In this document: positions 1,983-27,758 of the stretch, one piece after another
Numbering within the stretch: the first letter of the stretch is position 1
How the letters are laid out: each line of letters begins with the position of its first letter
Assembly (NCBI GenBank): GCA_017437785.1
Contig: JAFRXH010000058.1
Coordinates: 1-40,356, forward strand
DNA: 40,356 bases
Direction: 5' to 3'
Source: Lachnospiraceae bacterium
Lineage (GTDB): Bacteria; Bacillota; Clostridia; Lachnospirales; Lachnospiraceae
Program-made: the position numbers and the translations under genes
Notes under the pieces: generated by a model
The model's database searches: none
Seen by the model: only the letters and a program-made list of their open reading frames with translations
Told to the model about the DNA's origin: nothing

Positions 1983-3311
1983 TTACATCTGATTTACGCA
2001 GCCTAAGAATACAGGCAGACCGGTTTCGTTATCTATTATTCCGTAGATGAATGGACGGTCTAAGATAACAAATATGTATTCTATGGGCTCAGCCACTGAT
2101 GTGCAGCCGTCGGTCATTTCCAGTGCTGTGGCAGCAGCAGCTCTGGTACCTTTGCGGTCCACCTCGATATGTGTCTTATGGATCACACTGCTAATGCAGA
2201 CAGGATGGGGATCACCGTTTTGTTCGCACAGCATATTGTTGAAATCGGCAAGCTCCGGATCGAAGGCGTCGGTCATTCCCATTGACTGTAAGATAGCGCT
2301 CATTTCCATATCGTAATCAAACGTGAATTCGGGAATTTCAACCACGACGTTGCCGCCTTTTGTATTTCTTATTGCTTCGGAAATATCAGCATTACTGTCG
2401 GAAAGATCTTTTATATAGTCATCAAGATCAACACCTTCCCCGGGCAGCAGGCCCATGAAAGAGTAACGGCCGCCCTTATAATCGCGAAGGAAGCCTGTGC
2501 CCCCGTTTAGTTCAAAGTAGCGGGATTCTTCGCTGTGCAACAGGGTTACTTTACTGATGCTGCCGTCAGCATTTGTAAAATCCATATCCTCATAGATCTG
2601 TTTATCTTCATATTCATTAAGCCATTCAGCCTCAAAAGCCAGCGCATTTATGATATACATCCTCGCTTCATCGGATATATTATCGAGTATATTGGGGATC
2701 ATGCCGCGGGTCTCATGGTTGACCCAGCCGTTGATATCATTTAAGGTGGTGCCGTTAAACGGGGCTTTCCATACCTGGGCATCATACCATGAAGAGGCTT
2801 TGGAAGCGAACTCCGGAATCAGATCGTAGATACCCTCATCTTTTAACCATATGGAATTGGCTACGTTCCACTCAACATCCGGATCGTTCTTCATGCGCGT
2901 GGAAAGCTCATAGAGCAGAGGGCTCATCTCGTCTATTGAAGTTCCCCCGCCTATCACTGATTCGATCTGGGAAAGGGTATTTCCGCCGGCTCCGCTTTCT
3001 GCCATGCCGAAGGCCAGTTCGACGGATACGGGAGATATGCACACGTTTTTACCGGTGCCTTCCGCTGCAGCGGTTTCTGCTAAAAGCTTTGTCCCCGCTA
3101 TGGAGAGCGCAGAGATCTGTTCGTTATTAATCTCTGATTCAGGTGCGCTCAGAGTTGAAACATTTTTAGTGAGTTCTTGCGATGCTTCGCTGTGATTAAA
3201 GGGTATGCTGACCTCCCTTTGTGTGGGGCTCTCAAGTACCGGCCCTTTGTCTGCGCAGGCGCCGAGCATCATTGCGCTAAGCAGTGTTACAGCAATTGTT
3301 CTCTTTTTCAT
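1983..3311 (-). CDS. Serpin-family protease inhibitor, lipoprotein
   Basis: Predicted surface-anchored serpin that traps serine (or cysteine) proteases by inserting its cleaved reactive loop. From the chosen start (ATG at 3309-3311, preceded by AGGGAGG) it is 442 residues. A signal peptide ends in the lipobox L-G-A-C (Cys19), then comes a linker, then the full serpin domain from about residue 60 to the end. The hinge K-G-T-R-A-A-A-A-T-A-L matches the small-residue hinge needed for loop insertion, so the protein should be inhibitory. The C-terminal signature (D-R-P-F-I-Y-G-I-I-D, then L-P-V-F-L-G-C-V) is intact. By counting from the hinge, P1-P1' falls near D-G-C-T, but this is approximate. 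An upstream extension of the frame to 3509 lacks a ribosome binding site and would spoil the signal peptide. It lies downstream of an acyltransferase on the same strand with a 220-nt gap. Confidence 0.9.
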   Translation of the reverse strand: MKKRTIAVTLLSAMMLGACADKGPVLESPTQREVSIPFNHSEASQELTKNVSTLSAPESEINNEQISALSIAGTKLLAETAAAEGTGKNVCISPVSVELAFGMAESGAGGNTLSQIESVIGGGTSIDEMSPLLYELSTRMKNDPDVEWNVANSIWLKDEGIYDLIPEFASKASSWYDAQVWKAPFNGTTLNDINGWVNHETRGMIPNILDNISDEARMYIINALAFEAEWLNEYEDKQIYEDMDFTNADGSISKVTLLHSEESRYFELNGGTGFLRDYKGGRYSFMGLLPGEGVDLDDYIKDLSDSNADISEAIRNTKGGNVVVEIPEFTFDYDMEMSAILQSMGMTDAFDPELADFNNMLCEQNGDPHPVCISSVIHKTHIEVDRKGTRAAAATALEMTDGCTSVAEPIEYIFVILDRPFIYGIIDNETGLPVFLGCVNQM

Positions 3312-3531
3312 ATTATTTTTCCTCCCTGTCGTTTCTTTTGTTAACGATATAGTATATACGTACTGAGGCAGCGGATTTATGGCTTTATGTAAATTTTTCC
3401 CGGTATCCGCCACCCGGGAGAATGAATTAGATTTAGCGGTGAAGATGAAGACAGGGAGGAATATGAGCATTTTGTCAGACAAACACCTTTTCGGGAAATT
3501 CAGGATCAATTACGTTTTGGGAGAGGCAGAT

Positions 3532-4521: not shown

Positions 4522-5256
4522 GTGAGCGAAGAAAAAGATCAGGAAAAAAAAGAAAAAGAAAAGCTTAGCGATGTTGAAAAAGCTTATATGGAGCTGACCG
4601 TACAAAAGCGTGTTAAATTCTATTTGGCAGGCATATTATTTGTATTGGCTGTAGTAACGATCCTCATAGTCAGGGGCTGTGCCAAAAAAGATGATGTGCC
4701 GCTTTCCGAACGTATAAGCGAGTCTATCGAAGATGTGGTAGTGGGACAGGAAGGGAAGGTTGAGCTGGTCACCGAAAGCACGCTTGAAAATGCGGTGAGG
4801 AGCGCTACGCTCTATACGGCGTCGTATCCTTATAACGGAGTGGCACAGGTGTACGGAACGATAGAGGAAGGGCTTAAATACTATGTGGCTTACAAGGCAG
4901 AGATCAAAGCAGGCATAGACAGCAGTAAGATAAGGGTGGAGCTTGATGAGGAAGAAAAGCTCATAATCATCCGCCTGCCGGAGATAGAGCTTACAGAGCC
5001 TTCCATAGACGGTAAATTCAAGTTCATCTTCATGGATGATAAATATAATACCGGAGATACCTATAATGAGGCCTTTACGGCTGCTACAGCGGATATGAAC
5101 CGCCGCCTAAAGCTTAATATGTTAAACGATCTGAAGAAAACAGCTACGGATTCGGCCAAGGCTGTTGAACGTGCTTTAGTCGAGCCCTGGGTTAACCAGG
5201 TGGATCCCGAAAAGCATTATACGGTAAAGGTGCTGGCCTTTGAGGAGGAGGAATGA
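4522..5256 (+). CDS. DUF4230 family membrane-anchored protein
   Basis: First gene of the operon leading to the FtsK-like ATPase; function unknown. The 244-residue product has a highly charged cytoplasmic N-terminus (E/K-rich, residues 1-30), one membrane helix at about 34-53 (A-G-I-L-F-V-L-A-V-V-T), and an extracellular domain of the DUF4230 type. That domain has a Y-x-V-x-Y-x-A-E-I-K-A-G-I-D segment, then paired strands with I-I-I-R-L-P-E-I and a helical end. The start is GTG at 4522, with only a weak AGGG upstream. The next gene overlaps it by 4 nt (ATGA) and encodes a second DUF4230 protein, so the two are likely paralogous partners on the cell surface. Confidence 0.75.
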   Translation: MSEEKDQEKKEKEKLSDVEKAYMELTVQKRVKFYLAGILFVLAVVTILIVRGCAKKDDVPLSERISESIEDVVVGQEGKVELVTESTLENAVRSATLYTASYPYNGVAQVYGTIEEGLKYYVAYKAEIKAGIDSSKIRVELDEEEKLIIIRLPEIELTEPSIDGKFKFIFMDDKYNTGDTYNEAFTAATADMNRRLKLNMLNDLKKTATDSAKAVERALVEPWVNQVDPEKHYTVKVLAFEEEE

Positions 5257-5909
5257 TGGATAAAAGATATTTTGCCATAGGTTTCCTGCTCATGATCATG
5301 ATGCTTTGCGCTTGCGGGAAAGACACTGTGGAGGAGATCGAAAGTACCGTTTCCGAAGACGAGCCGGAGGTGATAGTGCTGTCTGCGGACTATGTTCCGG
5401 ACACCCCGGATTTCGTACCGGAGCTTTCGCGTATAAAGAGCATATGTGAGCTGTCCACGCTTAAGTGCATATACCACAATGTGGCTTACGGCACACAGTA
5501 TGCGGGTACCGGACTCTCACACATGGGAGAAAAGAACCGTAATTTCATGCAGGAATATGACTGCGAAGTCGAGATCAGCTATTCCGTGGATCAGATAAAG
5601 ATGGAGCAGAACGGGACTGAGATACGCATAAGCCTGCCGGAACCCAATATCACAAGCCGTAAGCTGCCGGATTCCATCTCGCCCGATTCCTACATAGAGG
5701 AACCGGACAGCACATTTAACGATAATCCGATCAAGGCTGAGACCATCAGTAAAGCCATTTCTTTTGCCGATGTGAACATGGAGGAAGAGATAAGGGAAAA
5801 TACCAATCTGATCGCGAGCGCCGAGTATCAGGCCAAAAGCCTGATAGAGAATTATATCAAGCAGATAGGCCTGCTTACGGATGTGGAATATAAGATAATC
5901 TGGGAATAA
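5253..5909 (+). CDS. DUF4230 family lipoprotein
   Basis: Second DUF4230 protein, 218 residues. It begins with a lipoprotein signal peptide whose lipobox, M-L-C-A-C (cysteine at about residue 21), predicts anchoring to the outer face of the membrane. The body keeps the family pattern: a cysteine-containing first helix, a V-E-I-S-Y-S-V-D-Q-I-K strand, a stretch I-R-I-S-L-P-E-P-N-I matching R-L-P-E-I of its neighbour, and a long C-terminal helix. GAGGAGG sits just upstream of two adjacent ATGs (5253 and 5256). It overlaps the preceding stop codon, so the pair should be made together. No enzymatic motif is visible. Confidence 0.75.
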   Translation: MMDKRYFAIGFLLMIMMLCACGKDTVEEIESTVSEDEPEVIVLSADYVPDTPDFVPELSRIKSICELSTLKCIYHNVAYGTQYAGTGLSHMGEKNRNFMQEYDCEVEISYSVDQIKMEQNGTEIRISLPEPNITSRKLPDSISPDSYIEEPDSTFNDNPIKAETISKAISFADVNMEEEIRENTNLIASAEYQAKSLIENYIKQIGLLTDVEYKIIWE

Positions 5910-5922
5910 GAAGGATACGGAT

Positions 5923-6153
5923 ATGCATGACAGTGCTGTTTTTAACAGGGAAGCAGACTCCATAGTGGAAGTGGCCGATACGCTCATCAGAAAGACAGAG
6001 CGCTCGGGCATGCAGTGGAGGGACCGTAAATACAGGGAACTCTGCGATGCGATGAACGAGATAAAAAGCGGTGAGAGCAGCTTAAGAAGTGCGGCATCCG
6101 CCTGCGCGGCAAGCGTGGATGCATTCTGGAATATAGCTGCGGAGCAGGTATAA
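5923..6153 (+). CDS. Small W-x-D helical-hairpin protein (WXG100-like), first copy
   Basis: 76-residue, all-helical protein of unknown function. Two predicted helices are joined by a turn with S-G-M-Q-W-R-D (W32, D34), directly followed by R-K-Y-R-E-L. The geometry (helix, tryptophan turn, helix, no signal peptide, under 100 residues) matches ESX/WXG100 substrates, but glycine of W-x-G is replaced by aspartate. Two further genes in the same operon carry the same turn. Unlike those, this protein lacks the Y-x-x-x-R tail and ends F-W-N-I-A-A-E-Q-V. GAAGGA precedes the ATG. The resemblance is a pattern match by eye, not a database result. Confidence 0.6.
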   Translation: MHDSAVFNREADSIVEVADTLIRKTERSGMQWRDRKYRELCDAMNEIKSGESSLRSAASACAASVDAFWNIAAEQV

Positions 6154-6157
6154 GGCG

Positions 6158-6952
6158 ATGATGGATCTGGTTGATGTATCGGTAACGGCTCTTATGGATG
6201 TGGCCGGATCACTGAATGAGTATAAGCTGGATCTGCTGCAGGCAAGGGTCAGCACGGGATATTTTAGCGCGGTCGGTGAATGCAGTGCGGAGCTTGGCAG
6301 GACAGAGGAACAGTTAAGGGATCTAGAAAACGAGCTGGCCTATGAACAGAAGGAGCTGGACCGGCTGTATGGCGAGCTGGATTATGCAAAAAAAGATCTG
6401 GCTGATGCTGAGTTCAGGAGATCAAAACTGGAAGGTGAGATAGCACAGGCGGAGCAAAGCGCCGGTGCCTGCGAAGGGGCTGCTTATAAAGCTAAAAAGG
6501 ATATGGAGTTTCACGCTGCCGCAGCTGCAAACGCGCAGTATCAGAATGATGCGGCTGAGCATCAGGCGATGTACGAAGCGGCGGCAGCAGAATACGAAGC
6601 AGCGGTATCCGATGCGGAGAATTTCAAGGCGCAGGCGGCAGCGGCATCGGATGAGCTGGCTTATACGGAGGGAACGATATCCAAGCTTTATAAGGATATA
6701 GACTGGCTGCAGCGTGAGAGTTTTGATACACAGCAGAGAGTTGACGGGCTTACCGACAGAAAATACAGGCTGGAGAATAAGCTCTCCCGTATGAGGGATG
6801 CATTTAACAAGCTGGAATCGGATATAAGGTATTTTCAGAGTGAGATAGACCGCTATGTGTCGGCTTCGGACAACGTGGCCGACAGGCTGCTTGCGGCCAC
6901 ACAACGTTGCATCACATATATAACGGAGTATGAAGACACACGTCTGATATAA
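6158..6952 (+). CDS. Long coiled-coil protein of the W-x-D locus
   Basis: 264-residue cytosol-type protein with no signal peptide. After a short N-terminal helix, residues about 45-240 are almost continuous heptad-like helix, rich in E, K, Q and A, with an alanine-rich break near residues 105-170. It ends in Y-E-D-T-R-L-I (Y258, R262), the same Y-x-x-x-R-L ending as two of the small neighbours, which is the strongest sign it belongs to the same system. It could be a larger secreted partner (as LXG or Esp proteins are in ESX systems) or a scaffold. It starts 4 nt after the preceding stop. No known domain recognised. Confidence 0.65.
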   Translation: MMDLVDVSVTALMDVAGSLNEYKLDLLQARVSTGYFSAVGECSAELGRTEEQLRDLENELAYEQKELDRLYGELDYAKKDLADAEFRRSKLEGEIAQAEQSAGACEGAAYKAKKDMEFHAAAAANAQYQNDAAEHQAMYEAAAAEYEAAVSDAENFKAQAAAASDELAYTEGTISKLYKDIDWLQRESFDTQQRVDGLTDRKYRLENKLSRMRDAFNKLESDIRYFQSEIDRYVSASDNVADRLLAATQRCITYITEYEDTRLI

Positions 6953-6977
6953 AAATACAGTCGAAGGGAGAATCGGT

Positions 6978-7259
6978 ATGGCAGCTAATGTATCGGTAGA
7001 TGCTAAAGCCATTAAAGGCGGTATCATGATCACGCAAATGTCCATGGATAAGCTAAAGGAATCGTCGGTGCGGCTGGCACAGAATTACCAGCGTGCAGGT
7101 GCAGGAGGATGGAGAGACCAGAAGTATAATGACCTGGGCGTTCTTATAGATCAGAGTATCAATGCCCTGCGTAAGCCGCTGGCACAGCTTGAAGAATGCC
7201 AGGAGAAACTCAGGCGTCTGCTCAAAGAGGTGGAAGATTACGACGCGACCAGACTGTAG
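6978..7259 (+). CDS. Small W-x-D helical-hairpin protein (WXG100-like), second copy
   Basis: 93 residues, predicted helix-turn-helix hairpin. The turn reads A-G-G-W-R-D-Q-K-Y (W45, D47), nearly identical to W-R-D-R-K-Y in the first copy. The C-terminus is D-Y-D-A-T-R-L (Y88, R92). ESX substrates carry a C-terminal Y-x-x-x-[DE] export signal; here the same spacing ends in arginine. AAGGGAG lies 7 nt before the ATG. Length, fold and position just upstream of an FtsK-type ATPase all fit a WXG100-superfamily protein, but the family match is inferred from motif and context. Confidence 0.65.
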   Translation: MAANVSVDAKAIKGGIMITQMSMDKLKESSVRLAQNYQRAGAGGWRDQKYNDLGVLIDQSINALRKPLAQLEECQEKLRRLLKEVEDYDATRL

Positions 7260-7286
7260 CGATTGTTTGTATAAAAGGAGAATATC

Positions 7287-7556
7287 ATGGCTGTATGTGC
7301 ATCCTCGGATCTTATCCGTGAAATGGAAAATGATATAAAGAAGATGATAAACGAACTGGAGAATTTAAGTGATGGCATCGAGAAGGGGATAAAGAACCAG
7401 GCTGACTGGAACGATTCGCAGTCGGCACGCTTTCATGAGCTTATGCATCAGATAGCGGTCCTCAGTTCTGCACCGTGTTCCGAACTGATCGATGTATTGC
7501 CCAGGATGGAAAGACTGGCTTCGGCGCTTGATAATTACAACAGTGTACGTTTTTGA
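7287..7556 (+). CDS. Small W-x-D helical-hairpin protein (WXG100-like), third copy
   Basis: 89 residues, two predicted amphipathic helices joined at Q-A-D-W-N-D-S-Q-S (W41, D43). The C-terminus N-Y-N-S-V-R-F (Y84, R88) repeats the tail seen in the two preceding genes with conservative changes. AAAGGAG precedes the ATG, and the ATPase gene follows 13 nt after the stop. Together with the second copy it could form a heterodimer in the way EsxA and EsxB do. There is no signal peptide or membrane segment, as expected for a substrate recognised by an FtsK-like motor. Confidence 0.65.
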   Translation: MAVCASSDLIREMENDIKKMINELENLSDGIEKGIKNQADWNDSQSARFHELMHQIAVLSSAPCSELIDVLPRMERLASALDNYNSVRF

Positions 7557-7569
7557 CTAAAGGAGAGGG

Positions 7570-10500
7570 ATGGCTGTTATGGAAAACAAAGCAGCAGAAC
7601 TTGCACAGGAGTATGCAAGGAAGCTTCAGGAAGTACGCAAGGAGAAGGAAAACTGGGACTCAAGGTATGGCTATTTTAAGAATTGCGCTTTTTTAAGACT
7701 GCGCTCCGAGCTTAAGAGCAGGCTTAAAAACATAGAGAATAATGAGGAAAGCAGTGCAGCACTGAGGACCGGATATTCCCGCAGGAGGGCTGCCGTAACC
7801 CTTGAATTGTCACGTAACCTTGCAGCTAATCAGGAAAAATTTGCAAGGAAGACATCGGAGATCTTTAAATCCGATCGTAATAAGCTAAAGGATTACAGGG
7901 AGAATTATCTTCACGTTCTGAGCCCGGAGAAAGCTTTTAAGGCATATCCGGTATGGGCCGAGGTGGAATGCCCGGCTTTAGCTATAAAGGACGCAGATGT
8001 AAGGGAGAGTATGGCAGGATCCTTCGGGACCGGTGACGAAGCTGCTTTCCGGTTTCCGTATCTGCTGGGTACTGAGAACTGTAATTTCTGGCTTGATGGG
8101 AAAGAGCCCGAGCGTGATATAGATTTCAGCCACCATATACTGCGCAGCTTCCTTTCTTTTATTCCTGCCGGTAAACTTAAGGTATATGCTTATGATGAGC
8201 AGGAGATGGGTCAGAGGATACAGCCTTTTCTTGATTTCATGAACAGGACGGATGATGTTATAGATATAAAGTCCGGCCCTGATGAGCTTAAGACCCTGCT
8301 GGAAGCGCTTGACCGCCAGGTAAGGGAATGCATACAGCAGAAGCTGGGATCGAGCTATAAAGATATATTTGCATATAACCGTGCATCCGCGGGTAAGAGC
8401 GAGAAGATCACGCTTATGCTTTTATATGATTTTCCCGGGAACCTGGATAAGAAGAGCGTAGAGTATCTTCAGAAGATCATGTACAAGGGTAACAAGTGCG
8501 GGATCTATACGGTAATATGTCACAGGTCTGATATACGTTCCAGAAACTATGATGCTCCGGATGAGGAGATGGTAGAGCAGCTTTCGGAATACTGCAAAAA
8601 GATAGAATTTGACGGGGATGATATATTCCTGCTGCCTGAATCCTATAAGCTGAGCATACCTTCCGCTCCCGGACAGGATAAGATGAACGCCTTCATACAG
8701 GAGTATAAAGAGGAATGCGAGCAGATGAAGTACCGCGGCCTTTCCTTTGAGGAGACCTGTGCTCCTGCGGATGATGAATGGTTTACATCGTCTTCGGTGG
8801 AAGGCCTGCGCATACCTCTTGGCGTGGGAGACGGCGGAGAGACGCAGGAACTGGTGATAGGCAGACAGGGATATCACGGCCTGATCATAGGCGGTACCGG
8901 ATCCGGTAAGTCCACCCTTTTACATACGATCATATTAAGCTCCATGCTGCATTATTCACCGGATGAGCTACAGCTGTATCTGATGGACTTTAAGAGCGGA
9001 ACCGAATTTAAGCCTTATGAACGCTTCAGGCTGCCGCATATACGCCTGCTGGCGCTGGATGCGATACAGGAATTCGGTGAGAGCATCTTAGAGGAGCTTG
9101 ATAAGGAGATACGCATGCGTGCCGAGCGCTTTAAAGAGGCAGGCGTGAGCAGTCTTAAGGAATACCGCAGTAAAAGCGATGTGCCCATGCCGCGCATCCT
9201 GGTGCTCATAGATGAATTCCAGGTACTCTTTGATATGGACCAGAACCGTAAAGTGGCTGATAACTGTGCGCGCCTTACCTCAAATATAGTTAAACAGGGC
9301 CGTTCATTCGGTATACATCTTCTGATGTCGACGCAGTCCATGCGCTTTGGAAACCTGACAATAGGTAATGAGTGCTTCGGAGAGATGCGTATACGTATAG
9401 GTCTCAACTGGGCCGACCAGGATACACTTTCACTTTTCGGCAGGGATTCAGGCAGGGATGTGGAGCGCCTCCACAAACTGAAGGAAGGGCCTAAGGGTAC
9501 CGCGGTCATGACCGAGGAAATGGGCAATAAGGAAGAAGAGAGCTTCAGGGTATCGCTGTGCGAGAACAGGGACAGATACCTTAAGGAGATAGAGGACCAG
9601 CTCGGGGATTATGAAGAAGAACGCCATGTCTTTGACGGGCAGCGTGAATATCCTCTGCTGGATGCTTTAAAGAAATATGATAACGACGGCAGTGGCATCG
9701 TATCGGTGCTTCTGGGTGAGAAGATAAAGATCGCTCCGCCTCTTATGTTAAAGCTTCATGTGGGAGATAATCAGAACCTGCTTATCTGCGGACAGGACGG
9801 AAAGACGGAATGCAGGCTTTCTTCGGATTATCTGATATCACTTGTGAGAAATAAAAATGCCGATGTGGCGCTTATAGACGGAGAGATGATCTGCGGCCGT
9901 GCAAAGGATCAGACCCTTGAGTTCTATGATCTGTTAAAACAATATGATGACAGGCTCAAGACCGCACGGGATCAGGGGGATATCATCAGGTTTATAAGAC
10001 AGGCATACGAGGTATTTAAGGACAGAAAGAATTCGGCAAAAGATGAAGCATATGTGATATTTATAAGAAACCTGCATTATATCGAGCTCTTAAGAAATAT
10101 CCTTGCAGGCGAGCGTATCGATGAGGAAGCATATGCGGATGATGCAGGCAGCAGTGCCGGCTCATCACAGGTCGATCTGATCGCGGCAATGATGAACGGT
10201 GAGATCGGAGATGCCGAAACTGCAAAGGAGAAGGAAAGAGACAATACGCCGGTGGCGGATATGCTCTACCGTATGCTGCGTGACGGCAGTTCTTACGGAG
10301 TGTACTTTGTGGTAACATCCCGCGATTATTCGACGGTCAGGGAATGCGGAAGCTTTTCCGATAATCTGCTCAAGCATTTCAAAAAGCGTATACTCTTTGC
10401 TCTTTCCGATGATGAAGCCTCAAATCTGATAGAGGGAGTGAAGCTTTCAGGACTGATACCGGATACGGTATATTACACGGACGGTTATTTGGAGAAGCTT

Positions 10501-10587
10501 CAGTGCAAGCCTTATAAAGAGCCCGGGAAAGATGAATTGAAGGCCTTCCTTGACGGCGGAAAGGAGAATGATCGAGATGACTTATAA
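7570..10587 (+). CDS. FtsK/SpoIIIE-type ATPase without membrane anchor (EssC-like motor)
   Basis: 1005-residue motor protein, the likely energy source of the W-x-D system. Residues 1-120 are charged helix. Residues about 120-430 form an ATPase-like but P-loop-free domain. The first true ATPase domain has Walker A G-G-T-G-S-G-K-S-T (441-449), L-Y-L-M-D-F-K-S-G near 480, Walker B L-V-L-I-D-E-F (544-550), and M-S-T-Q-S as the sensor segment, all as in FtsK/SpoIIIE and EssC. A second domain from about 700 keeps only a shortened P-loop, G-Q-D-G-K-T (741-746), and no acidic Walker B, so it is probably inactive. Unlike EssC or EccC there is no FHA domain and no hydrophobic membrane helix. It follows the third small protein by 13 nt and overlaps the next gene. 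Confidence 0.8.
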   Translation: MAVMENKAAELAQEYARKLQEVRKEKENWDSRYGYFKNCAFLRLRSELKSRLKNIENNEESSAALRTGYSRRRAAVTLELSRNLAANQEKFARKTSEIFKSDRNKLKDYRENYLHVLSPEKAFKAYPVWAEVECPALAIKDADVRESMAGSFGTGDEAAFRFPYLLGTENCNFWLDGKEPERDIDFSHHILRSFLSFIPAGKLKVYAYDEQEMGQRIQPFLDFMNRTDDVIDIKSGPDELKTLLEALDRQVRECIQQKLGSSYKDIFAYNRASAGKSEKITLMLLYDFPGNLDKKSVEYLQKIMYKGNKCGIYTVICHRSDIRSRNYDAPDEEMVEQLSEYCKKIEFDGDDIFLLPESYKLSIPSAPGQDKMNAFIQEYKEECEQMKYRGLSFEETCAPADDEWFTSSSVEGLRIPLGVGDGGETQELVIGRQGYHGLIIGGTGSGKSTLLHTIILSSMLHYSPDELQLYLMDFKSGTEFKPYERFRLPHIRLLALDAIQEFGESILEELDKEIRMRAERFKEAGVSSLKEYRSKSDVPMPRILVLIDEFQVLFDMDQNRKVADNCARLTSNIVKQGRSFGIHLLMSTQSMRFGNLTIGNECFGEMRIRIGLNWADQDTLSLFGRDSGRDVERLHKLKEGPKGTAVMTEEMGNKEEESFRVSLCENRDRYLKEIEDQLGDYEEERHVFDGQREYPLLDALKKYDNDGSGIVSVLLGEKIKIAPPLMLKLHVGDNQNLLICGQDGKTECRLSSDYLISLVRNKNADVALIDGEMICGRAKDQTLEFYDLLKQYDDRLKTARDQGDIIRFIRQAYEVFKDRKNSAKDEAYVIFIRNLHYIELLRNILAGERIDEEAYADDAGSSAGSSQVDLIAAMMNGEIGDAETAKEKERDNTPVADMLYRMLRDGSSYGVYFVVTSRDYSTVRECGSFSDNLLKHFKKRILFALSDDEASNLIEGVKLSGLIPDTVYYTDGYLEKLQCKPYKEPGKDELKAFLDGGKENDRDDL

Positions 10588-11686
10588 GGAATTGGAAGAG
10601 CTTCTGGATGAGGCTTCACAGGCCTATATCACCTGCGATTTTTCTAAGGCACAGGCGGCTCTGAAGGAAGCGGGTAATGTGAACGTAAGCGAATGCAGTT
10701 CCGAAGCATATTTCCGCATGGGTGAGGTATGCCTGGCTGCGTCGGGAGATGAAGCATTCGAGCAGGAGGCGGCAGCACAGGAGGCGGAAAACTGGTTTAC
10801 GGAGGCTGCCAAAAAAGGCAGTGTGTATGCAGAGTTGTTCCTGGGAGAGATGGCAGAAAAACAGGATCCCGACTTTATAGAAAAGCTCCGCAGGGATGCT
10901 CAGGTTCATGAAGGAGCGGCTTTCTTGCTGGGATCTCTCTATGAGGAGGGCAGCAGTGTAAAAAAGGACGAAGCAGCTGCACTTAAGTATTACCGTCTGG
11001 GATACGAGATGGGGGACGGCGAAGCAGCATGCAGGCTGGGCGAAATATATAATGAGGGACTCTTAGGTCAGGCAAGGGATGAGAAAAAGGCTTATTCCTG
11101 CTTTAAACTGGCTGCGGAAAAGGATAATCCTACCGCGATGTTCATGATGGGCAGGTATCTGCAGAACGGAATGGGCGGGGTGACCGCATCGGATGACGAA
11201 GCGATAGAATGGTACCAAAAGGCACTGGAGGCCGGTGAGCCCCAGGCTGAGAATATCTGCCGTTTCCTTATGCAGCAGAAGCTGGCGGCCCAGGCGGCAG
11301 CGCTTGAGGCAAAGAAAAGGGAAGAGGCGCAAAGGGCAGCAGAGGAGCGGCGCAGGCTCGAAGAAGAAGCACGAAAGAAAGCTGAAGCCCAAAAGCAGGC
11401 GCAGGCAAAGGCCCTGGCAGAACAGAAAGCTAAGGAAAAGGCTCTTGCTGAACAGAAAGCCAGGGAAGCAGCTGCACAGAAGGCAGCTTCCACACCTGCA
11501 AAGGGTGGTGACGATACCAAAGAAAAAGTTCTGGGAGTGGTACTTATAGTGATCTGGATAATAGCCGGCGTGGTCATCGGCAAGATAGCTATGGCCATAA
11601 CAAAAAACGGGTTGGTTGCTGTCATCGCCGGATTTATAGGAGGTGCCATGGTTGCCGGGGCAATCTATTCCAAGGTGGACAATTAG
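10577..11686 (+). CDS. Sel1-repeat protein with coiled coil and C-terminal membrane hairpin
   Basis: 369 residues in three parts. The first half is Sel1-like repeats (units such as A-A-F-L-L-G-S-L-Y-E-E-G and A-A-C-R-L-G-E-I-Y-N-E-G), a helical scaffold for protein binding. Residues about 235-315 are an A/K/E/Q-rich helix. The end holds two hydrophobic helices (V-L-G-V-V-L-I-V-I-W-I-I-A-G and L-V-A-V-I-A-G-F-I-G-G) that should insert in the membrane. Since the ATPase of this operon lacks its own anchor, this protein could tether it; that is inference. The start at 10577 is chosen because AGGAG lies 10 nt upstream; ATG 10568 is too close and TTG 10550 has no site. It overlaps the ATPase gene by 11 nt. 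Confidence 0.8.
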   Translation: MTYKELEELLDEASQAYITCDFSKAQAALKEAGNVNVSECSSEAYFRMGEVCLAASGDEAFEQEAAAQEAENWFTEAAKKGSVYAELFLGEMAEKQDPDFIEKLRRDAQVHEGAAFLLGSLYEEGSSVKKDEAAALKYYRLGYEMGDGEAACRLGEIYNEGLLGQARDEKKAYSCFKLAAEKDNPTAMFMMGRYLQNGMGGVTASDDEAIEWYQKALEAGEPQAENICRFLMQQKLAAQAAALEAKKREEAQRAAEERRRLEEEARKKAEAQKQAQAKALAEQKAKEKALAEQKAREAAAQKAASTPAKGGDDTKEKVLGVVLIVIWIIAGVVIGKIAMAITKNGLVAVIAGFIGGAMVAGAIYSKVDN

Positions 11687-11791
11687 CGGATAATATACAG
11701 ACTATTAAAGCCGACTTTTTATAAATTCTTATGGTATTGGTGTTAATAAAGTAGTATAATCATAATTGATTTTTTATACGGAGACCGTAAT

Positions 11792-13027: not shown

Positions 13028-14083
13028 ATGAGCGTATTATTTGCCGATTATAAGAAGGCAGAGCAGGAAGCGGCAGCGAAACATCAGGCTGAAGAAGAGG
13101 CAAAAAAGAAGGCAAAGGAAGAGGCGCGCAGAAAGGCCGAAGAAGAAGCCAGAAAGAAAGCCGAGGCGGAAGCTAAGAAGAAAGCCGAAGAAGAGGCTAA
13201 GAGAAAGGCTGCGGAAGAGGCACGAAAGAAAGCCGAAGAGGAAGCCAGAAAGAAAGCCGAGGCAGAAGTTAAGAAGAAGGCTGAAGAAGAAGCTAAGAGG
13301 AAGGCAGAGGAAGAGGCACGAAAGAAGGCCGAAGAGGAAGCCAGAAAGAAGGCAGAGGAAGAGGCACGAAAGAAGGCCGAAGAGGAAGCCAGAAAGAAGG
13401 CGGAGGAAGAGGCACGCAGGAAAGCTGAAGAAGAAGCCAGAAAGAAGGCAGAAGAAGAGGCACGAAAGAAGGCCGAAGAAGAAGCCAGAAAGAAGGCGGA
13501 AGAAGAGGCACGAAAGAAAGCCGAAGAGGAAGCCAGAAGGAAGGCTGAGGAAGAGGCACGCAGGAAAGCTGAAGAAGAGGCCAGAAGGAAGGCTGAGGAA
13601 GAGGCTAAGAGAAAGGCCGAAGAAGAAGCCAGGAGAAAGGCAGAGGAAGAGGCACGCAAGAAGGCCGAAGAGGAAGCCAGAAAGAAGGCTGAAGAAGAGG
13701 CACGCAAGAAGGCCGAAGAAAGAGCAAAGAAGAGAGAAGAGATCGAAAGGCTCTTTATAAAAGCTGAAAAAGAAGAAGATAAGAACGAACTGGAGTCTAC
13801 GATAGAAGCTTATCTTAAGGTGCTTGAGAAGGCTGAGGCATTTGAGGATGACGAGATTCTTAAAAAGGCGTATCGCAGACTGGCCAGGGCAGGATATAAG
13901 CTTAATGTTTATTACACCGAAAGATCGGCAGGCTTTTATATAGATGCGATGCTGGCAGCCGATAACGGTGATATAAAGAATGAGGATGCGCTCCGCGAAC
14001 AGGGCGATGAATTTGCGAAGAAAGCCAAGCAGGCAATGCTTGCATCGCAAAGATATGATAAAAGATCCAGACAGGTTAAGTAG
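13028..14083 (+). CDS. Octad-repeat protein with long single-alpha-helix rod
   Basis: 351-residue protein of unknown role. Residues 21-236 are 27 uninterrupted eight-residue units of the form A-E-E-E-A-R-K-K, with R/K and occasional A/V variants. Glutamate and lysine/arginine are spaced by four, the pattern of a stable single alpha-helix rather than a heptad coiled coil; such a rod would span roughly 32 nm. The C-terminal 110 residues are a separate helical domain (E-R-L-F-I-K-A-E-K-E-E-D and following), possibly TPR-like. There is no signal peptide or membrane helix. A similar A/K/E helix occurs in the Sel1 protein two genes upstream. AAGGAGG precedes the ATG; the gene is probably cotranscribed with pepT. 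Confidence 0.75.
   Translation: MSVLFADYKKAEQEAAAKHQAEEEAKKKAKEEARRKAEEEARKKAEAEAKKKAEEEAKRKAAEEARKKAEEEARKKAEAEVKKKAEEEAKRKAEEEARKKAEEEARKKAEEEARKKAEEEARKKAEEEARRKAEEEARKKAEEEARKKAEEEARKKAEEEARKKAEEEARRKAEEEARRKAEEEARRKAEEEAKRKAEEEARRKAEEEARKKAEEEARKKAEEEARKKAEERAKKREEIERLFIKAEKEEDKNELESTIEAYLKVLEKAEAFEDDEILKKAYRRLARAGYKLNVYYTERSAGFYIDAMLAADNGDIKNEDALREQGDEFAKKAKQAMLASQRYDKRSRQVK
13088..13735 (+). repeat. 24-bp coding minisatellite, 27 units
   Basis: Twenty-seven in-frame 24-nt units encode the octads of the rod protein. Many neighbouring units alternate between GCCAGA and GCACGA/GCACGC for the Ala-Arg pair, giving a 48-nt higher-order period that suggests growth by duplication of unit pairs. 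No unit is out of phase. Confidence 0.9.
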
Positions 14084-21339: not shown

Positions 21340-23844
21340 ATGAAAGAACTAATGCTGATGTACCATCCCGTGAAGAAAGAGGTGCGTTTCTGCGGCAGAT
21401 TCAAGGGTGAGTTCGTCGAGATACCTTATGATGAATGTCCGCGTCTGCAGAAATACGGCCCGGGGACTGAATTCCTGCTGCAAAACCAGGGCAGTCGTTT
21501 CTTTGACGATATCTGGGAGCAGTTCAATAAGGATAATGTCAACATTACATTTAAAGGGACTAAGATAGATTACGAAGACCTCCAGAAAAAAGTTCAGGAT
21601 TATAATGATACAAAGGGTAAGCAGATATTTAAAGTGGCTGATTATGTAGAGCTGCCCAGCGTATCGGAAATATACGATCAGATATTGGAATTCTGCGACG
21701 AAACGATCGACCGCTTCGAAAAGGAACTCAAGAGCAACGAGACCAAGCAGATGTTCCATAAGCGCCGCGTGCAGTTTGAAGAACGTAAGGAAGCACTTAA
21801 CAATAACGAGATCAATCTCTGCCTGGTGGGTACGTATTCCGCCGGCAAGTCTACTTTCATAAATGCGATAATAGGAAAGCGTATACTTCCGGAAAGCATC
21901 AATTCCGAAACAGCAAAGATGTTCAAGATCAGAAACGAGAGCCGTCCGCGTGTTTCTTTTGCGGTACATACCACAAGAGACGCCAGACCCGACTTTATAC
22001 AGGTGGCATGGAATGATGCTATAGGCCAGTTTGAAGTGCAGCGTGGCCTGGGCAATACGGAAGAGCATATCCGCAGGATGCTCGAGCTTGAATGCAGTGC
22101 GGTAGCGGAGCTGGGACTTCGCCAGCACGAGCAGCTTTGCCGTATACTGAAGAAACTTAACGATGTGCCCAATCATGAGCAGAAAGACGGATCGGGCTAT
22201 ATCGGCGGTGTTATAGAAGTAGGATTCCCTATCCCTCTTTGCAAGAACATCAACTTTACATTCTTTGATACTCCGGGTACCGATTCCAATTCCAGCGAGC
22301 ATCTTCTGATACTTAAAGAAGCGCTGCAGCATCAGACGAATTCGATACTTATAGTGATATATGAGCCTACCAAGATGGAAGGTACCGGTAACTCTGTACT
22401 TTACAAGCTTATCGGAGGCTTTAAGGACGGAAAGAAAAATGAGGCAGGGGTTTCCATCGATCTGGACCGCTCCTTCCACGTTATCAATCAGGCGGATACC
22501 AAGGGCAGCAAGGACCTTAAGCTGTTAAGAAACAAGAAGGTCCTGGTTTCCTTAAAGGAAGAGGACAAGATATATGATGAGGAAGATATGGAGATAGATC
22601 TTTCCGAAGCAAGGCTCTTCTTCGTATCTTCAAAAGCAGCATATATCAGTAAGGCCATCGAATCCAACGTTGATCTGGAAGATGAGCGTACCTGGCTGGC
22701 TAATCACAAGAGTGAGATAAATAACGAGCCCACAAGGGACCCTTTTACGGAGAAGCCTACCGACATCTCTTCCGACAGCGGTATCTTTTACAGATACGAC
22801 AAGCTTGCAGATGCCGATTTTGAGACCAAGCAGCTTCTGGCAGACTGTGAAAAAGCAGCAGATGCCTGCGATAATTCACTGGAAGGCGTTATTCACAGGA
22901 TCTATATCAACTCGGGCATGTATGCGATCGAGCAGGAGATAATCAAGTACGCCCAGAAATATGCTCTGGCTGTTAAGGCAAAGGGGCTTTATGACGGGAT
23001 AGAAGGTCTTATCGATTTCATACGTACCGACTACGAGGCTATAGAGAACCAGGCACGTCTTTCCAAGGAGCATATCGAGCGTAATATCGAGATAATGAAG
23101 ACCAGCATGGTTCAGGATATTGAGGCTGCACATGAAGAGTTCGTTGCACGTATCACCGATGATTCCCTGGAGACCCAGGTTGAGGAGATCAAGGAGCTGG
23201 TACGCCAGATAGAGCAGCGTCAGGAGCTGGCCAGCCGTCAGGCAGATAAGATGCAGTGGATCGCGCTAAAGCCCGAGATATTCGAGAAAAAGAATACCAT
23301 CATAATCAGCGAGCTCAACAGATATCTGCAGGAGATAGATGATTATTATAAAAAGATCCGTGGTGATATCCTGGCAGCCCAGGTTAATGAGCTTAAGGAG
23401 ATCATCGTCAAGAAGATAAAAGAATACAAGGGTATCGATGAGGGGCTGATCCGCAGGATTGCAAATATCTCCGATACCGAGATCCCGCCTTCAGAGATAG
23501 GCGCACTTAAGATGAATGATTACATCAACGAGCAGAAGGCTATCCTGATCTTTAATACGATGGATAAGAAGGCGTACAAGAGAGACCTTGAGCGTGCTTT
23601 CAATGCGCAGACCGTTGAACAGTTCGTGGCTTATAAGGGTGAGGTAATAAAGGTAGCCCAGCAGCGTACCGCACAGATGGTGGAAGAGTTCAGGAATAAT
23701 ATCGATACTATTTCCGGAAGTCTGGAACTGCTCATTAAGGATGAGGGCCGCGCTATCGAGGAGCAGAAGAAAGCTAAGGAAGTGCTTGATATGATCGGTG
23801 CCCAGGATGAAGCGCTTAACCGCAGGATCTGGTCGGAAGATTAA
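21340..23844 (+). CDS. Dynamin-like large GTPase
   Basis: 834-residue GTPase of the dynamin superfamily. Bacterial relatives act in membrane remodelling, fusion or stress protection. The GTPase motifs are clear: G1 G-T-Y-S-A-G-K-S-T (164-172), G3 D-T-P-G (310-313) and G4 N-Q-A-D (383-386, a variant of N-K-x-D). An unusual N-terminal region of about 160 residues precedes the G domain (M-Y-H-P-V-K-K-E-V-R-F onward). After it come long helices to the end (about 520-830), rich in E, K and Q, as in the stalk of dynamins. There is no membrane helix, so membrane contact, if any, must come from a loop or partner. A single gene rather than the tandem pair common in bacteria. GGAGG lies 12 nt before the ATG. 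Confidence 0.85.
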   Translation: MKELMLMYHPVKKEVRFCGRFKGEFVEIPYDECPRLQKYGPGTEFLLQNQGSRFFDDIWEQFNKDNVNITFKGTKIDYEDLQKKVQDYNDTKGKQIFKVADYVELPSVSEIYDQILEFCDETIDRFEKELKSNETKQMFHKRRVQFEERKEALNNNEINLCLVGTYSAGKSTFINAIIGKRILPESINSETAKMFKIRNESRPRVSFAVHTTRDARPDFIQVAWNDAIGQFEVQRGLGNTEEHIRRMLELECSAVAELGLRQHEQLCRILKKLNDVPNHEQKDGSGYIGGVIEVGFPIPLCKNINFTFFDTPGTDSNSSEHLLILKEALQHQTNSILIVIYEPTKMEGTGNSVLYKLIGGFKDGKKNEAGVSIDLDRSFHVINQADTKGSKDLKLLRNKKVLVSLKEEDKIYDEEDMEIDLSEARLFFVSSKAAYISKAIESNVDLEDERTWLANHKSEINNEPTRDPFTEKPTDISSDSGIFYRYDKLADADFETKQLLADCEKAADACDNSLEGVIHRIYINSGMYAIEQEIIKYAQKYALAVKAKGLYDGIEGLIDFIRTDYEAIENQARLSKEHIERNIEIMKTSMVQDIEAAHEEFVARITDDSLETQVEEIKELVRQIEQRQELASRQADKMQWIALKPEIFEKKNTIIISELNRYLQEIDDYYKKIRGDILAAQVNELKEIIVKKIKEYKGIDEGLIRRIANISDTEIPPSEIGALKMNDYINEQKAILIFNTMDKKAYKRDLERAFNAQTVEQFVAYKGEVIKVAQQRTAQMVEEFRNNIDTISGSLELLIKDEGRAIEEQKKAKEVLDMIGAQDEALNRRIWSED

Positions 23845-25385: not shown

Positions 25386-26882
25386 TTAATCGGGATTTGA
25401 GAAAGGCACACCGTCGGCGATAAAAGCAAACTTAGTTGTGAACTTGATTACGTCGAACGTAGGCGGATGAGGTATCTCGATGGGCGGTATGGGAACCACC
25501 TTGTAATTGGAGAATGCAGGATACTGGTCGATATCCGCCATGTATGTGATGAACGGATATTCACGGCCGTGGAGTATCAGACATTCGCCCTTTTCCTTGC
25601 TGAAACGCTGAAGCTCGGTTACAGAGATCAGACGGCGTTTTTCAGCTCCGCCGGGACCCCATGCATCGATCTCGCCGCAAAGGAAGCTCATTTCGTTGAG
25701 CAGGTCACGCTCACGTGAGGTAAGGAAGATCCAGTTATCGCAGTTACCCTTGATGGTATCTGCATCTTCACCGTAACGTCCTTTAAGCTGGTGCAGTGAC
25801 TGAACTACCAGATAGAAGCGCATGTTACGGGAACGTGCTGCAGATATCATGGAAGGCATATCAGGCACCTTGGGGATGTTACAGAACTCGTCCAGTACGA
25901 AGTTAACACGTACGGGAAGTGAGAGTGAAGCCTGGCGCTGTGCTTCACCGATCAGTATTTCGTATACCTGCTTGATGAACATGGTCACCAGGAAGTGGCA
26001 GGTGGTCTTCTCATCGGGAACGATAACGTATACAGCAGTCTTTTCATGACCGAACATACGGATATCGAAAGTATTGTGGCAGAGCATATCGGTAAGTCTC
26101 TTATTCAGGTTGAAGATGGAAACCATACCGTAGAGCACGCTCATGATGGAAGCGATGGTCTTTTCGTTCTCACCGAGCAGAGTACCCTTAAACAGCATAC
26201 CGATGGTGTTCTGTGTGCTCATCTTGCCGGCCAGAGTCTTTAAGGACTCAAGAGCTGCCTGTGAGCAGAGAGCCGTAAGGCTTCGCATGTTAACCGCATT
26301 CTCTGCAGCAGCTGCTTCAAAGAGCAGGTACATATTTGCGGTCAGCAGTGTTTCTGCCATCAGGGGGTACAGAAGGTCGGTAGTGTTTTCCTTCTGTCTT
26401 GCGGAAAGTGTAGCCGCAAGGTCGTTGACCAGGTTGTTTGCTTCATCCTTACGGCCGGTGCGGTAATACTCATAGGGCAGTGCCAGAGGATCCCACATAT
26501 CGCCGTAACCGATATCACGGAAGTTGAGCACTACGGTCTTGTAACCGTGCTCTTTTGCAAAACCGCCGGTACGGACATAAAGCTCAGCCTTAGGGTCAGT
26601 AACGACGAAAGATTCGCCTGAACGTATGAACATGTTAAGAGTGGGCATACAGAAGATACGGGTCTTCTTTGAACCGGTGGCACCGAATATAAGTGTATGG
26701 GTGTCACGACCGTCAAGGTATGCCGTATGTCCGTCGGACATGATGGGCACGCCGCCTATGGGATAAGTGGGTGCATCAATATCTACCTTAGTAGCGCTGC
26801 GCTGTATCTCCTCAACAGTAGCCCAGCGGGTAGTACCCATGTTACTTTTATATCTTGTGTTTTTTATCTGAGTGCTGCTCAT
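25386..26882 (-). CDS. VirD4/TraG-like coupling ATPase without membrane helices
   Basis: 498-residue ATPase of the type IV secretion coupling protein family. Walker A is G-A-T-G-S-K-K-T (67-74), with lysine in place of the last glycine of G-x-x-x-x-G-K-T. The strand F-V-V-T-D-P-K-A-E-L-Y (92-102) is the family's V-x-x-D-P-K-G-E-L block. Walker B is N-F-V-L-D-E-F-C-N-I (327-336), followed by M-R-F-Y-L-V-V-Q-S as sensor. The N-terminal membrane anchor of VirD4 is absent; the protein begins almost directly with the R-W-A-T segment of cytosolic VirD4 forms. No relaxase, VirB4 or other conjugation gene is in the window. It is probably cotranscribed with the gene before it (12-nt gap, AAGGAGGAGG upstream). 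Conjugation seems unlikely; the substrate is unknown. Confidence 0.8.
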   Translation of the reverse strand: MSSTQIKNTRYKSNMGTTRWATVEEIQRSATKVDIDAPTYPIGGVPIMSDGHTAYLDGRDTHTLIFGATGSKKTRIFCMPTLNMFIRSGESFVVTDPKAELYVRTGGFAKEHGYKTVVLNFRDIGYGDMWDPLALPYEYYRTGRKDEANNLVNDLAATLSARQKENTTDLLYPLMAETLLTANMYLLFEAAAAENAVNMRSLTALCSQAALESLKTLAGKMSTQNTIGMLFKGTLLGENEKTIASIMSVLYGMVSIFNLNKRLTDMLCHNTFDIRMFGHEKTAVYVIVPDEKTTCHFLVTMFIKQVYEILIGEAQRQASLSLPVRVNFVLDEFCNIPKVPDMPSMISAARSRNMRFYLVVQSLHQLKGRYGEDADTIKGNCDNWIFLTSRERDLLNEMSFLCGEIDAWGPGGAEKRRLISVTELQRFSKEKGECLILHGREYPFITYMADIDQYPAFSNYKVVPIPPIEIPHPPTFDVIKFTTKFAFIADGVPFSNPD

Positions 26883-26894
26883 CTTGCCTCCTCC

Positions 26895-27758
26895 TTAATA
26901 ATTGAACTGCGCCGTAAATACTTTGGCGTTGTTTTCGATCAGCTCGGAAACATAGATACCGTCAGGTGCAAAGGCGCTGATCATGCTCTTTGTCACGATG
27001 CCGTCATAAGGCGGAGTAGAAGTATATACCGAATATACGATATCGGATGCCAGACGGTCCAGCATATCATAACCGGCAAAGTATTTATCTTCACGCAGGC
27101 GGTTAACGGATGCGATGATCATCTCCTCTGCATCCTTAGCCAGATTCAGACCGTATTCGTTGATCTCCTTGCAGATATAATTGCAAAGTTCTGCGGAATC
27201 GGGCAGCTTCATATTGATAAGCTGGATACGGAAGAACAGTACCAGAAGCTGGGTAAGCTGCTGAACTGCCTGCTGGTTGTAATTGGGTAACTGGAAGATG
27301 TAGCAGATATCATCATCCATGGTTGCAAGATATTTCATGATATCAATGAAATGCGCGTCCTCAAAGTGTCCGGTCCATTCGCTTACATCTACGGACAGAA
27401 GGCCGTGATATTCGGAGCGGAAACCTGCAGCATCTCGGATCTTCTCACCGATCTTTTCAATCTCGTGACATTCCTTGTCTGCGGGAACATAGTCTACGAA
27501 ACATTCAAGGCAACGAACATTTCCGTAGAACTCCAGCAGATTGCCGGAGGTATACATGAAACTGGTAAGCAGCATGAGAAGGTTCTCACGGTCGATACCG
27601 TTATCTGCGGCCCATAAGAGGTTGGGAACCACCAGTCTGGGCTTAGCATGAAATTTTTCGACGTTATCGCTCAGACGCTGCCATTGATCAATGACTTCCT
27701 TGAACTCATCCAGACCGTGGAGAGCCATGATCTCTTTGTAGTACGCATTTTCTGACAT
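26895..27758 (-). CDS. Degenerate AAA+ protein, partner of the VirD4-like ATPase
   Basis: 287 residues, no membrane segment, not confidently recognised. The layout follows an AAA+ domain of CbbX/SpoVK style. A start-up helix L-H-G-L-D-E-F-K-E-V-I (13-23) resembles G-L-x-x-V-K-x-x-I. Next, L-L-W-A-A-D-N-G-I-D-R-E-N-L-L (47-61) falls where the P-loop belongs, but the G-K-T residues are gone. After a weak Walker B region, F-F-R-I-Q-L-I-N-M-K-L-P-D-S-A-E-L-C resembles the lid that normally reads F-x-x-Y-x-x-x-E-L. It should therefore not hydrolyse ATP and may be an adaptor for the VirD4-like ATPase encoded 12 nt downstream. AAGGTGG precedes the ATG. The AAA+ relationship is a judgement by eye. 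Confidence 0.5.
   Translation of the reverse strand: MSENAYYKEIMALHGLDEFKEVIDQWQRLSDNVEKFHAKPRLVVPNLLWAADNGIDRENLLMLLTSFMYTSGNLLEFYGNVRCLECFVDYVPADKECHEIEKIGEKIRDAAGFRSEYHGLLSVDVSEWTGHFEDAHFIDIMKYLATMDDDICYIFQLPNYNQQAVQQLTQLLVLFFRIQLINMKLPDSAELCNYICKEINEYGLNLAKDAEEMIIASVNRLREDKYFAGYDMLDRLASDIVYSVYTSTPPYDGIVTKSMISAFAPDGIYVSELIENNAKVFTAQFNY

Follow-up and report, generated by a model that had tools for sequence, protein, structure and literature searches.

A six-gene W-x-D locus of a Lachnospiraceae bacterium as a likely reduced, horizontally acquired type VII-like export module

The six-gene module

The DNA analyzed here, called the window, is the whole 40,356-nt stretch at positions 1-40,356 (forward strand) of contig JAFRXH010000058.1 of the Lachnospiraceae bacterium assembly GCA_017437785.1. 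It contains a group of six plus-strand genes that encode three small proteins with a tryptophan-x-aspartate (W-x-D) motif, a coiled-coil protein, an FtsK/SpoIIIE ATPase and a Sel1-repeat protein, and this locus is likely to be a reduced, horizontally acquired module for type VII-like protein export. The gene content, the homologies and a gene order conserved in relatives were observed directly, as were a gene fusion in one relative, a difference at the corresponding site of a sister genome, and the absence of E1, E2 and JAB genes from the contig. The module would represent a very small candidate exporter, consisting of four helical proteins, one ATPase and one membrane partner, and the minimum set for WXG-type export becomes a testable question.

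A first-pass annotation had described positions 4522-11686 as three W-x-D proteins and a coiled-coil protein in front of an FtsK-type ATPase, with a pair of DUF4230 genes upstream and, downstream of the ATPase, a Sel1 protein that has membrane helices. This description was confirmed, and all of the genes were found again at the same places on the plus strand. The module and its parts are as follows (aa, amino acids; ORF, open reading frame):

5910-11745, plus strand: whole inserted module of six genes, delimited at both junctions by blastn, tblastn and pairwise alignment against contig C37 of genome G226
5923-6153, plus strand: 76-aa W-x-D protein, WRD at residues 32-34 (A4 alignment; hhalign)
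6158-6952, plus strand: 264-aa coiled-coil protein with C-terminal YEDTRLI (same-position homologues in relatives; tail counts)
6978-7259, plus strand: 93-aa W-x-D protein, WRD at residues 45-47, a WXG100 relative (A2 profile against PDB)
7287-7556, plus strand: 89-aa W-x-D protein, WND at residues 41-43 (A3 profile against PDB; hhalign)
7570-10587, plus strand: 1005-aa FtsK/SpoIIIE ATPase with three FtsK-like domains (PF01580, E 4.2e-24)
8890-8913, plus strand: sole Walker A of the ATPase, GGTGSGKS, residues 441-448, in the middle domain (pattern search)
10577-11686 (ORF from 10550), plus strand: Sel1-repeat protein with two C-terminal hydrophobic segments (PF08238, 8.8e-23; hydropathy)

The likely start of the Sel1 gene is 10577, which overlaps the ATPase stop by 11 bp, while 10550 is an upstream TTG of the ORF. 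With this start, the gaps between the eight genes, counted from the first DUF4230 gene, are -4, 13, 4, 25, 27, 13 and -11 bp. The spacing is operon-like up to the Sel1 gene, which lies 105 bp from pepT.

W-x-D proteins and their tyrosine tails

The W-x-D pattern goes beyond chance because its tryptophan and aspartate are invariant in the aligned homologues of all three families (24, 18 and 15 sequences, hand-chosen from the search matches; 15 of 15 in the A4 alignment of the 76-aa family) and because the order of small W-x-D protein, coiled coil and two further W-x-D proteins recurs in relatives. When the A2 profile of the 93-aa family was compared with PDB, the twelve best matches were EsxB, EsxA, HP0062 and their kin at 2.9e-7 to 1.8e-5, with EsxB at 2.9e-7, HP0062 at 1.5e-6 and SaEsxA at 1.6e-5. 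SaEsxA was also the first match of the A3 profile of the 89-aa family (2.8e-4). In hhalign, the 89-aa family aligned with the 93-aa family at a probability of 99.2 (E 6.4e-20), and the 76-aa family did so at 97.1. Pfam WXG100 matches at E <=1 were obtained for 16 of the 24 A2 members, the best at 3.9e-5. The window proteins themselves stay below the Pfam WXG100 cut-off of 27.3 bits (93-aa protein, 13.7 bits, E 0.076; 89-aa protein, 13.6 bits), and no Pfam WXG100 match was listed for the 76-aa protein. Judged by these profiles, the W-x-D proteins are distant WXG100 relatives, a related branch below Pfam-grade membership, and the WXG100-type reading given to them at first pass was upheld by the matches to EsxB, EsxA and HP0062.

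Across the window and the 63 related loci described below, 131 family rows were collected. The tryptophan is present in 126 and the aspartate in 131, so that W-x-D occurs in 126 of 131; W-x-G occurs in none, the window's three proteins included, in a set gathered with profiles grown from the window proteins and thus biased towards W-x-D. A W-x-G protein is nevertheless detectable, as the same profile matched two of three canonical-type WXG proteins of the same genome (2e-6 and 1.4e-5). A genome-wide search gave three clear W-x-D matches, at E 1.8e-28, 4.8e-7 and 0.008, and the window contains all three; every other match had an E of at least 0.12.

Homologues of the coiled-coil protein occupy the same gene position in relatives, and its end, YEDTRLI, resembles the tails of the two larger W-x-D proteins, YDATRL and YNSVRF. 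Such a tail, defined as a tyrosine 3-8 residues from the end with a hydrophobic residue near the end, was found in 47 of 109 small W-x-D proteins; it is absent from the 76-aa family. It was also found in 20 of 30 proteins labelled coiled-coil, some of which belong to far loci and are perhaps not orthologous, compared to 251 of 3233 other ORFs, a control that includes spurious ones. YxxxD/E within the last 25 residues was found in 4 of the 109 small proteins and in 2 of the 30.

Related loci

A contig scan yielded 63 loci with a related ATPase, of which 35 were taken as near (L040-L072, L087 and L101). The usual order in the near loci is a small W-x-D protein, the coiled coil, two more small W-x-D proteins, a zinc-ribbon membrane protein, a short peptide, E2, JAB and E1, followed by the ATPase, a W-x-D fusion and an M48 peptidase. 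The quartet of three W-x-D proteins and coiled coil is complete in 22 of the 35, and contig ends truncate several of the others. Of the near loci, 32 have E1 and 31 the full trio of enzymes. The four incomplete cases are L055 and L056, without any of the enzymes, the 4-kb contig L060, and L069, which is truncated by the end of its contig and has E1 alone. Among the 28 farther loci, an E1 of the near type occurs in L098 only. The conserved set of enzymes, zinc-ribbon membrane protein, W-x-D proteins, long FtsK ATPase, fusion and M48 peptidase was seen in L034, L040, L042, L057 and other near loci. Of the neighbours grouped together at first pass, the quartet and the ATPase co-occur in these loci, Sel1 does so in a minority, and DUF4230 does not.

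L040 is the one locus whose enzyme set was scanned. ThiF (8.2e-30) and Prok-JAB (4.5e-7) both passed their Pfam cut-offs, and its E2 matched PADLOC models (1.7e-8) and had no Pfam match, as was also the case for the E2 of L057. W-x-D fusions of at least 135 aa were found in 16 of the 35 near loci (18 before overlapping frames were dropped), and the C-terminal matches of the 15 fusions scanned were as follows:

Above the cut-off (five): ADP-ribosyltransferase and colicin-type DNase (L051), papain-fold toxin (L057, L087), C39-like peptidase (L061)
Below the cut-off (two): C39-like (L034, L065)
Weak metallopeptidase match (one): L040
No C-terminal domain match (seven): L041, L042, L050, L058, L059 and two of L062

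The L040 fusion passes the Pfam WXG100 cut-off (27.6 vs 27.3). The L051 fusions stand in tandem at L051:13990-16124, one bearing the ADP-ribosyltransferase domain and the other the colicin-type DNase domain.

Beside the E2-like gene lies a gene for a peptide of 54-137 aa, and the motif [VA]P-x-G-K-L-A is present in 31 of 31 such peptides, at or near the end in 30 and mid-protein in the longer L071 protein. One example is:

L040:6178-6381: candidate modifier precursor for E1/E2/JAB

In the near relatives, the same machine is linked to toxins and to enzymes of ubiquitin-like conjugation; the window, L055 and L056 offer a natural comparison in which the enzymes are absent. The peptide could be a modifier that JAB would cleave behind the glycine and that would be joined to W-x-D proteins or toxins undergoing export. 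In that case the window would represent a naturally occurring form, free of conjugation, of a toxin-export machine whose counterparts in the relatives are run or guarded by a ubiquitin-like cascade of their own. We put this forward tentatively, as a possibility that is rather doubtful at present. If it is true, comparing the forms with and without the enzymes would reveal the role of conjugation in type VII-like export.

As a measure of rarity, a draw of 390 genomes from the class gave, besides the window, one near and two far relatives at E 1e-25. The 89-aa profile was matched in 3 of 396 family genomes, and none of 397 phylum genomes had a match at E 1e-80.

Several further observations concern the relatives. 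A Helicobacter sp. plasmid (L134:3761-8163) carries a W-G-D protein, a gene annotated as an HNH endonuclease, an SMI1/KNR4 gene and a related ATPase; this group looks like a toxin-immunity pair with an exporter of this type. On a Caballeronia plasmid (L135:3555-15677), a W-Q-D protein annotated as WXG100 lies near the ATPase, together with VWA, CARF, PP2C and kinase genes. In L070, L071 and L087, genes that by inspection are tyrosine-recombinase-like lie upstream of the set of E1/E2/JAB and ATPase, suggesting integrative elements. An unverified 10.4-kb record of a gut 'phage' contains one near relative, which the tree shows to be almost the same as the Faecalibacterium locus L058, and one distant relative is on an IMG/VR contig.

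The ATPase

Among solved chains the window ATPase is nearest to EccC and YukB, and the nearest NCBIfam models are likewise EccC/EssC (EccCa, 3.9e-36, 125 bits compared to an equivalog cut-off of 509; EssC, 4.6e-34, 117 compared to 778). By pattern search, each of 61 ATPases has one Walker A, which in the window lies in the middle domain. When the three domains were aligned with one another by hhalign in local mode, the probability was 86.6 for the middle and C-terminal domains, 92.0 for the N- and C-terminal domains, and a weak 7.5 for the N-terminal and middle domains. A simple hydropathy scan detected no membrane segment in the window ATPase. The same was true of 40 of the 61, the remaining 21 including borderline matches within domains; one or two clear membrane segments are present in several planctomycete, chloroflexal and acidobacterial relatives.

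In the long-form ATPases (1426-1542 aa), the N-terminal domain is internally repeated in 23 of 23. That the window ATPase is a truncated long form is not favoured, because the single-copy window and L056 ATPases branch before the long forms; the L056 fork is drawn open in the ATPase tree.

The ATPase might instead act inside the cell, as a DNA pump or as an anti-phage or signalling NTPase, with the W-x-D proteins serving as adaptors and not as cargo. That no membrane segment was detected fits such a role, as do matches to FtsK/HerA defence models (mad8, 3e-23; SspH, 1.2e-21) and the agreement of the L040 conjugation enzymes with the PADLOC E1, E2 and JAB models. However, the ATPase matches EccC/EssC better, the PADLOC matches of the ATPase cover the general P-loop region, and relatives fuse toxin domains to W-x-D proteins that are themselves related to WXG100. 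We therefore consider an intracellular role unlikely, and an anti-phage reading of the PADLOC matches was set aside as general P-loop similarity.

The Sel1 protein

The Sel1 protein is likely part of the module, as the first-pass annotation had suggested, because L056 carries it as a fusion with the ATPase. There, the quartet is followed after 21 bp by an ATPase whose reading frame continues into Sel1 repeats until the contig stops (Sel1, 3.8e-66; FtsK, 4.8e-29), and we regard this fusion as the best evidence for the assignment. Sel1 genes are also found nearby in the near loci L048, L065 and L070-L072 and in the farther loci L074, L080 and L093. One further Sel1 frame was found in the window's genome at E 1e-5. 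The window's Sel1 protein gave a sub-threshold match to the EssA model (13.7 bits compared to a cut-off of 32.45, E 0.042), which we take as similarity between hydrophobic tails.

A probable insertion beside the DUF4230 genes

Two DUF4230 genes, which we consider resident, lie directly upstream of the module:

4522-5256, plus strand: first DUF4230 gene, passes the Pfam cut-off; resident, outside the module
5253-5909, plus strand: second DUF4230 gene, passes the Pfam cut-off, lipoprotein-like start by inspection; resident

G226 is a sister species of the same genus whose pepT is 96% identical. Both DUF4230 genes are present in it (77% and 83% identical), the second lies 108 bp from pepT, and all six genes of window positions 5910-11745 are absent. 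The insertion is bounded on the left by the stop codon of the second DUF4230 gene and on the right by a point 46 bp ahead of pepT; G+C is 0.49 in the module compared to 0.44 and 0.47 outside. When 80 and 130 bases were compared, no direct repeat (8-14 bases) or inverted repeat (9-14 bases) was found to link the edges. An ATPase of this family was found in none of 34 congeners, some of whose genomes are incomplete, the best match in G226 being 5.3e-5, and five other congeners had no DUF4230 match beside pepT in the stretch examined. The simpler reading is a gain in the window's lineage rather than a loss in G226, and by these comparisons the locus was probably acquired horizontally. Relatives on plasmids occur in Helicobacter and Caballeronia, and the module itself has no mobile gene.

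The first-pass annotation had treated the eight genes from 4522 as one system in which the DUF4230 proteins are possibly envelope parts. The operon-like spacing agrees with this, and the pair at this site are the genome's only DUF4230 genes. This reading is extremely improbable, and the DUF4230 proteins were ruled out as parts of the system, given that the sister genome has the pair beside pepT without the other six genes and that a profile of six DUF4230 proteins matched in 0 of the 63 relatives' loci (an earlier search of the loci with single window proteins was weak, as these matched only themselves). DUF4230 is absent from 23 of 26 relatives' genomes and lies outside the loci in the remaining three. 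No match of DUF4230 to solved structures was found (best E 0.11), and no publication linking DUF4230 with FtsK was found in the open-licence literature searched.

A probable reduced form

The window contig has no E1, E2, JAB or zinc-ribbon membrane protein of the near-relative families, and the interval between the 89-aa protein and the ATPase is 13 bp. When the genome was searched with an E1 of this type, the sole match was partial, at 31%, in a frame of 260 aa; E2 and JAB were searched for in the contig. L055 is similar: its quartet, its ATPase and a B-box zinc-finger membrane protein are present, and no enzyme gene separates them. In the ATPase tree (quick method, midpoint root), the window falls within a clade of 34 rows with a Shimodaira-Hasegawa-like approximate likelihood ratio test support of 99. 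All three enzymes are present in 30 of these rows and none in the window, L055 and L056; the 31st row with enzymes is a record that starts inside JAB and has JAB and E1. Loss of the enzymes is the simpler reading because the earliest branches of the clade (L064, L068, L070-L072, L087 and L101) carry all three. A single origin of the enzyme-free state was also considered, and the tree, which needs three changes for three rows, is little informative on it. From this distribution, we infer that the window is a reduced, acquired form whose enzymes were lost rather than never present.

A further possibility is that the locus is a decaying remnant of an old toxin-export island and no longer works. 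This would explain why E1/E2/JAB, the zinc-ribbon membrane protein and the W-x-D fusions are missing and why the ATPase branch is long. On the other hand, the six frames are intact and overlap or are closely spaced, the Walker A is kept, as are the tryptophan and aspartate of all three small proteins, and L055 and L056 are likewise enzyme-free with the core in place. Decay is thus decidedly unlikely.

Proposed mechanism

Export, its direction, tethering and tail recognition are the parts of the preferred reading, a reduced export module, that we infer. The putative W-x-D hairpins and the coiled-coil protein would pair through their helices. By analogy with EccC and EsxB, their tyrosine tails may be presented to the inactive C-terminal domain of the window ATPase, and the single active middle domain would then pump the small proteins across the membrane. 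No membrane segment was detected in the ATPase, which the Sel1 protein could tether through its two C-terminal hydrophobic segments. In most near relatives the same machine comes with E1, E2 and JAB, and in about half of them with W-x-D fusions, several of which are toxin-like; the window copy would have lost all of these.

Several points weigh against this proposal. The two-segment tail is absent from the Sel1 proteins of other relatives; therefore the anchor role is suggested for the window alone. By inspection, none of the four small proteins has the canonical YxxxD/E near its end, and the window's genome has no fused toxin or further clear W-x-D protein elsewhere. Neither junction showed a mobile-element gene or a repeat, and the empty site was seen in one sister genome only, for which loss is an alternative. 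The window's exact position in the tree is unsure because its ATPase branch is long (1.41) and the placing fork is supported at 90 only. In addition, no experiment on members of the near group was found in the open-licence literature searched.

Other genes of the window

Four other genes or gene groups of the window were noted. A VirD4/TraG-like coupling ATPase (named by inspection) and its 287-aa neighbour lie on the minus strand at 25386-27758. A 351-aa protein at 13028-14083 consists mostly of EEARKKA-like repeats. By inspection, an 834-aa dynamin-like GTPase is encoded at 21340-23844 and a bacterial serpin-like protein at 1983-3509.

Comparison with known systems

Two elements of the module are already known. 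Table footnote 6 of Zhang et al. (2012, PMC3482391), on 'mobile versions of T7SS' (type VII secretion systems), describes solo WXG domains with a YueA-like ATPase that has three HerA/FtsK domains, of which the middle one alone is active. The window ATPase is similar in its three FtsK-like domains with a Walker A in the middle, in its small WXG-related partners, and in its sporadic occurrence. The footnote itself names no W-x-D, Sel1, coiled coil or E1/E2/JAB, and the lineages it gives are proteobacterial, planctomycete, verrucomicrobial, cyanobacterial and bacteroidete, whereas the window is from Firmicutes. The second element is HP0062 of Helicobacter pylori (PDB 2GTS, 3FX7), whose solved structure is a helical hairpin with WRD in its bend and whose gene lies in a cluster with an FtsK/SpoIIIE protein (PMC3397514). 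By profile it is homologous to the window's 93-aa WRD protein, and its structure supports a helical hairpin as the likely fold of the small W-x-D proteins; the account of HP0062 in that source describes a single W-x-D protein and leaves its function unassigned.

The relatives of the module share E1 (ThiF), E2-like and JAB genes with the bacterial neighbourhoods described by Iyer et al. (2006, PMC1779556), in whose neighbourhood descriptions the link to T7SS is YukD only; the window contig has none of these genes. The link to E1/E2/JAB, W-x-D as the mark of a family, and the reduced form were not found described in the open-licence literature searched. What appears to be new, as we have not found it in print, is the enzyme link together with the insertion and the reduced form.

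Similar to type VIIb systems, the module has an FtsK/EccC-type ATPase and WXG100-related proteins, and in relatives toxins are fused to the hairpin domain. Unlike type VIIb, it has W-x-D in place of W-x-G and no YxxxD/E in the window proteins. No passing match to EsaA, EssA, EssB, EsaB or FHA models was found in the eight products (for the coiled coil, among the best 25 families listed), in agreement with the first-pass annotation, and these missing parts rule out a canonical type VIIb system. The module is also not the genome's only T7SS-like system, because contig C35 (L037) carries a canonical-type locus with a 1534-aa EssC-like ATPase and WNG, WRG and WQG proteins, named by inspection and by similarity to the window ATPase. 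The proposal, made at first pass, of a minimal system separate from canonical T7SS is supported, now as a six-gene set without EsaA, EssB, EsaB and FHA.

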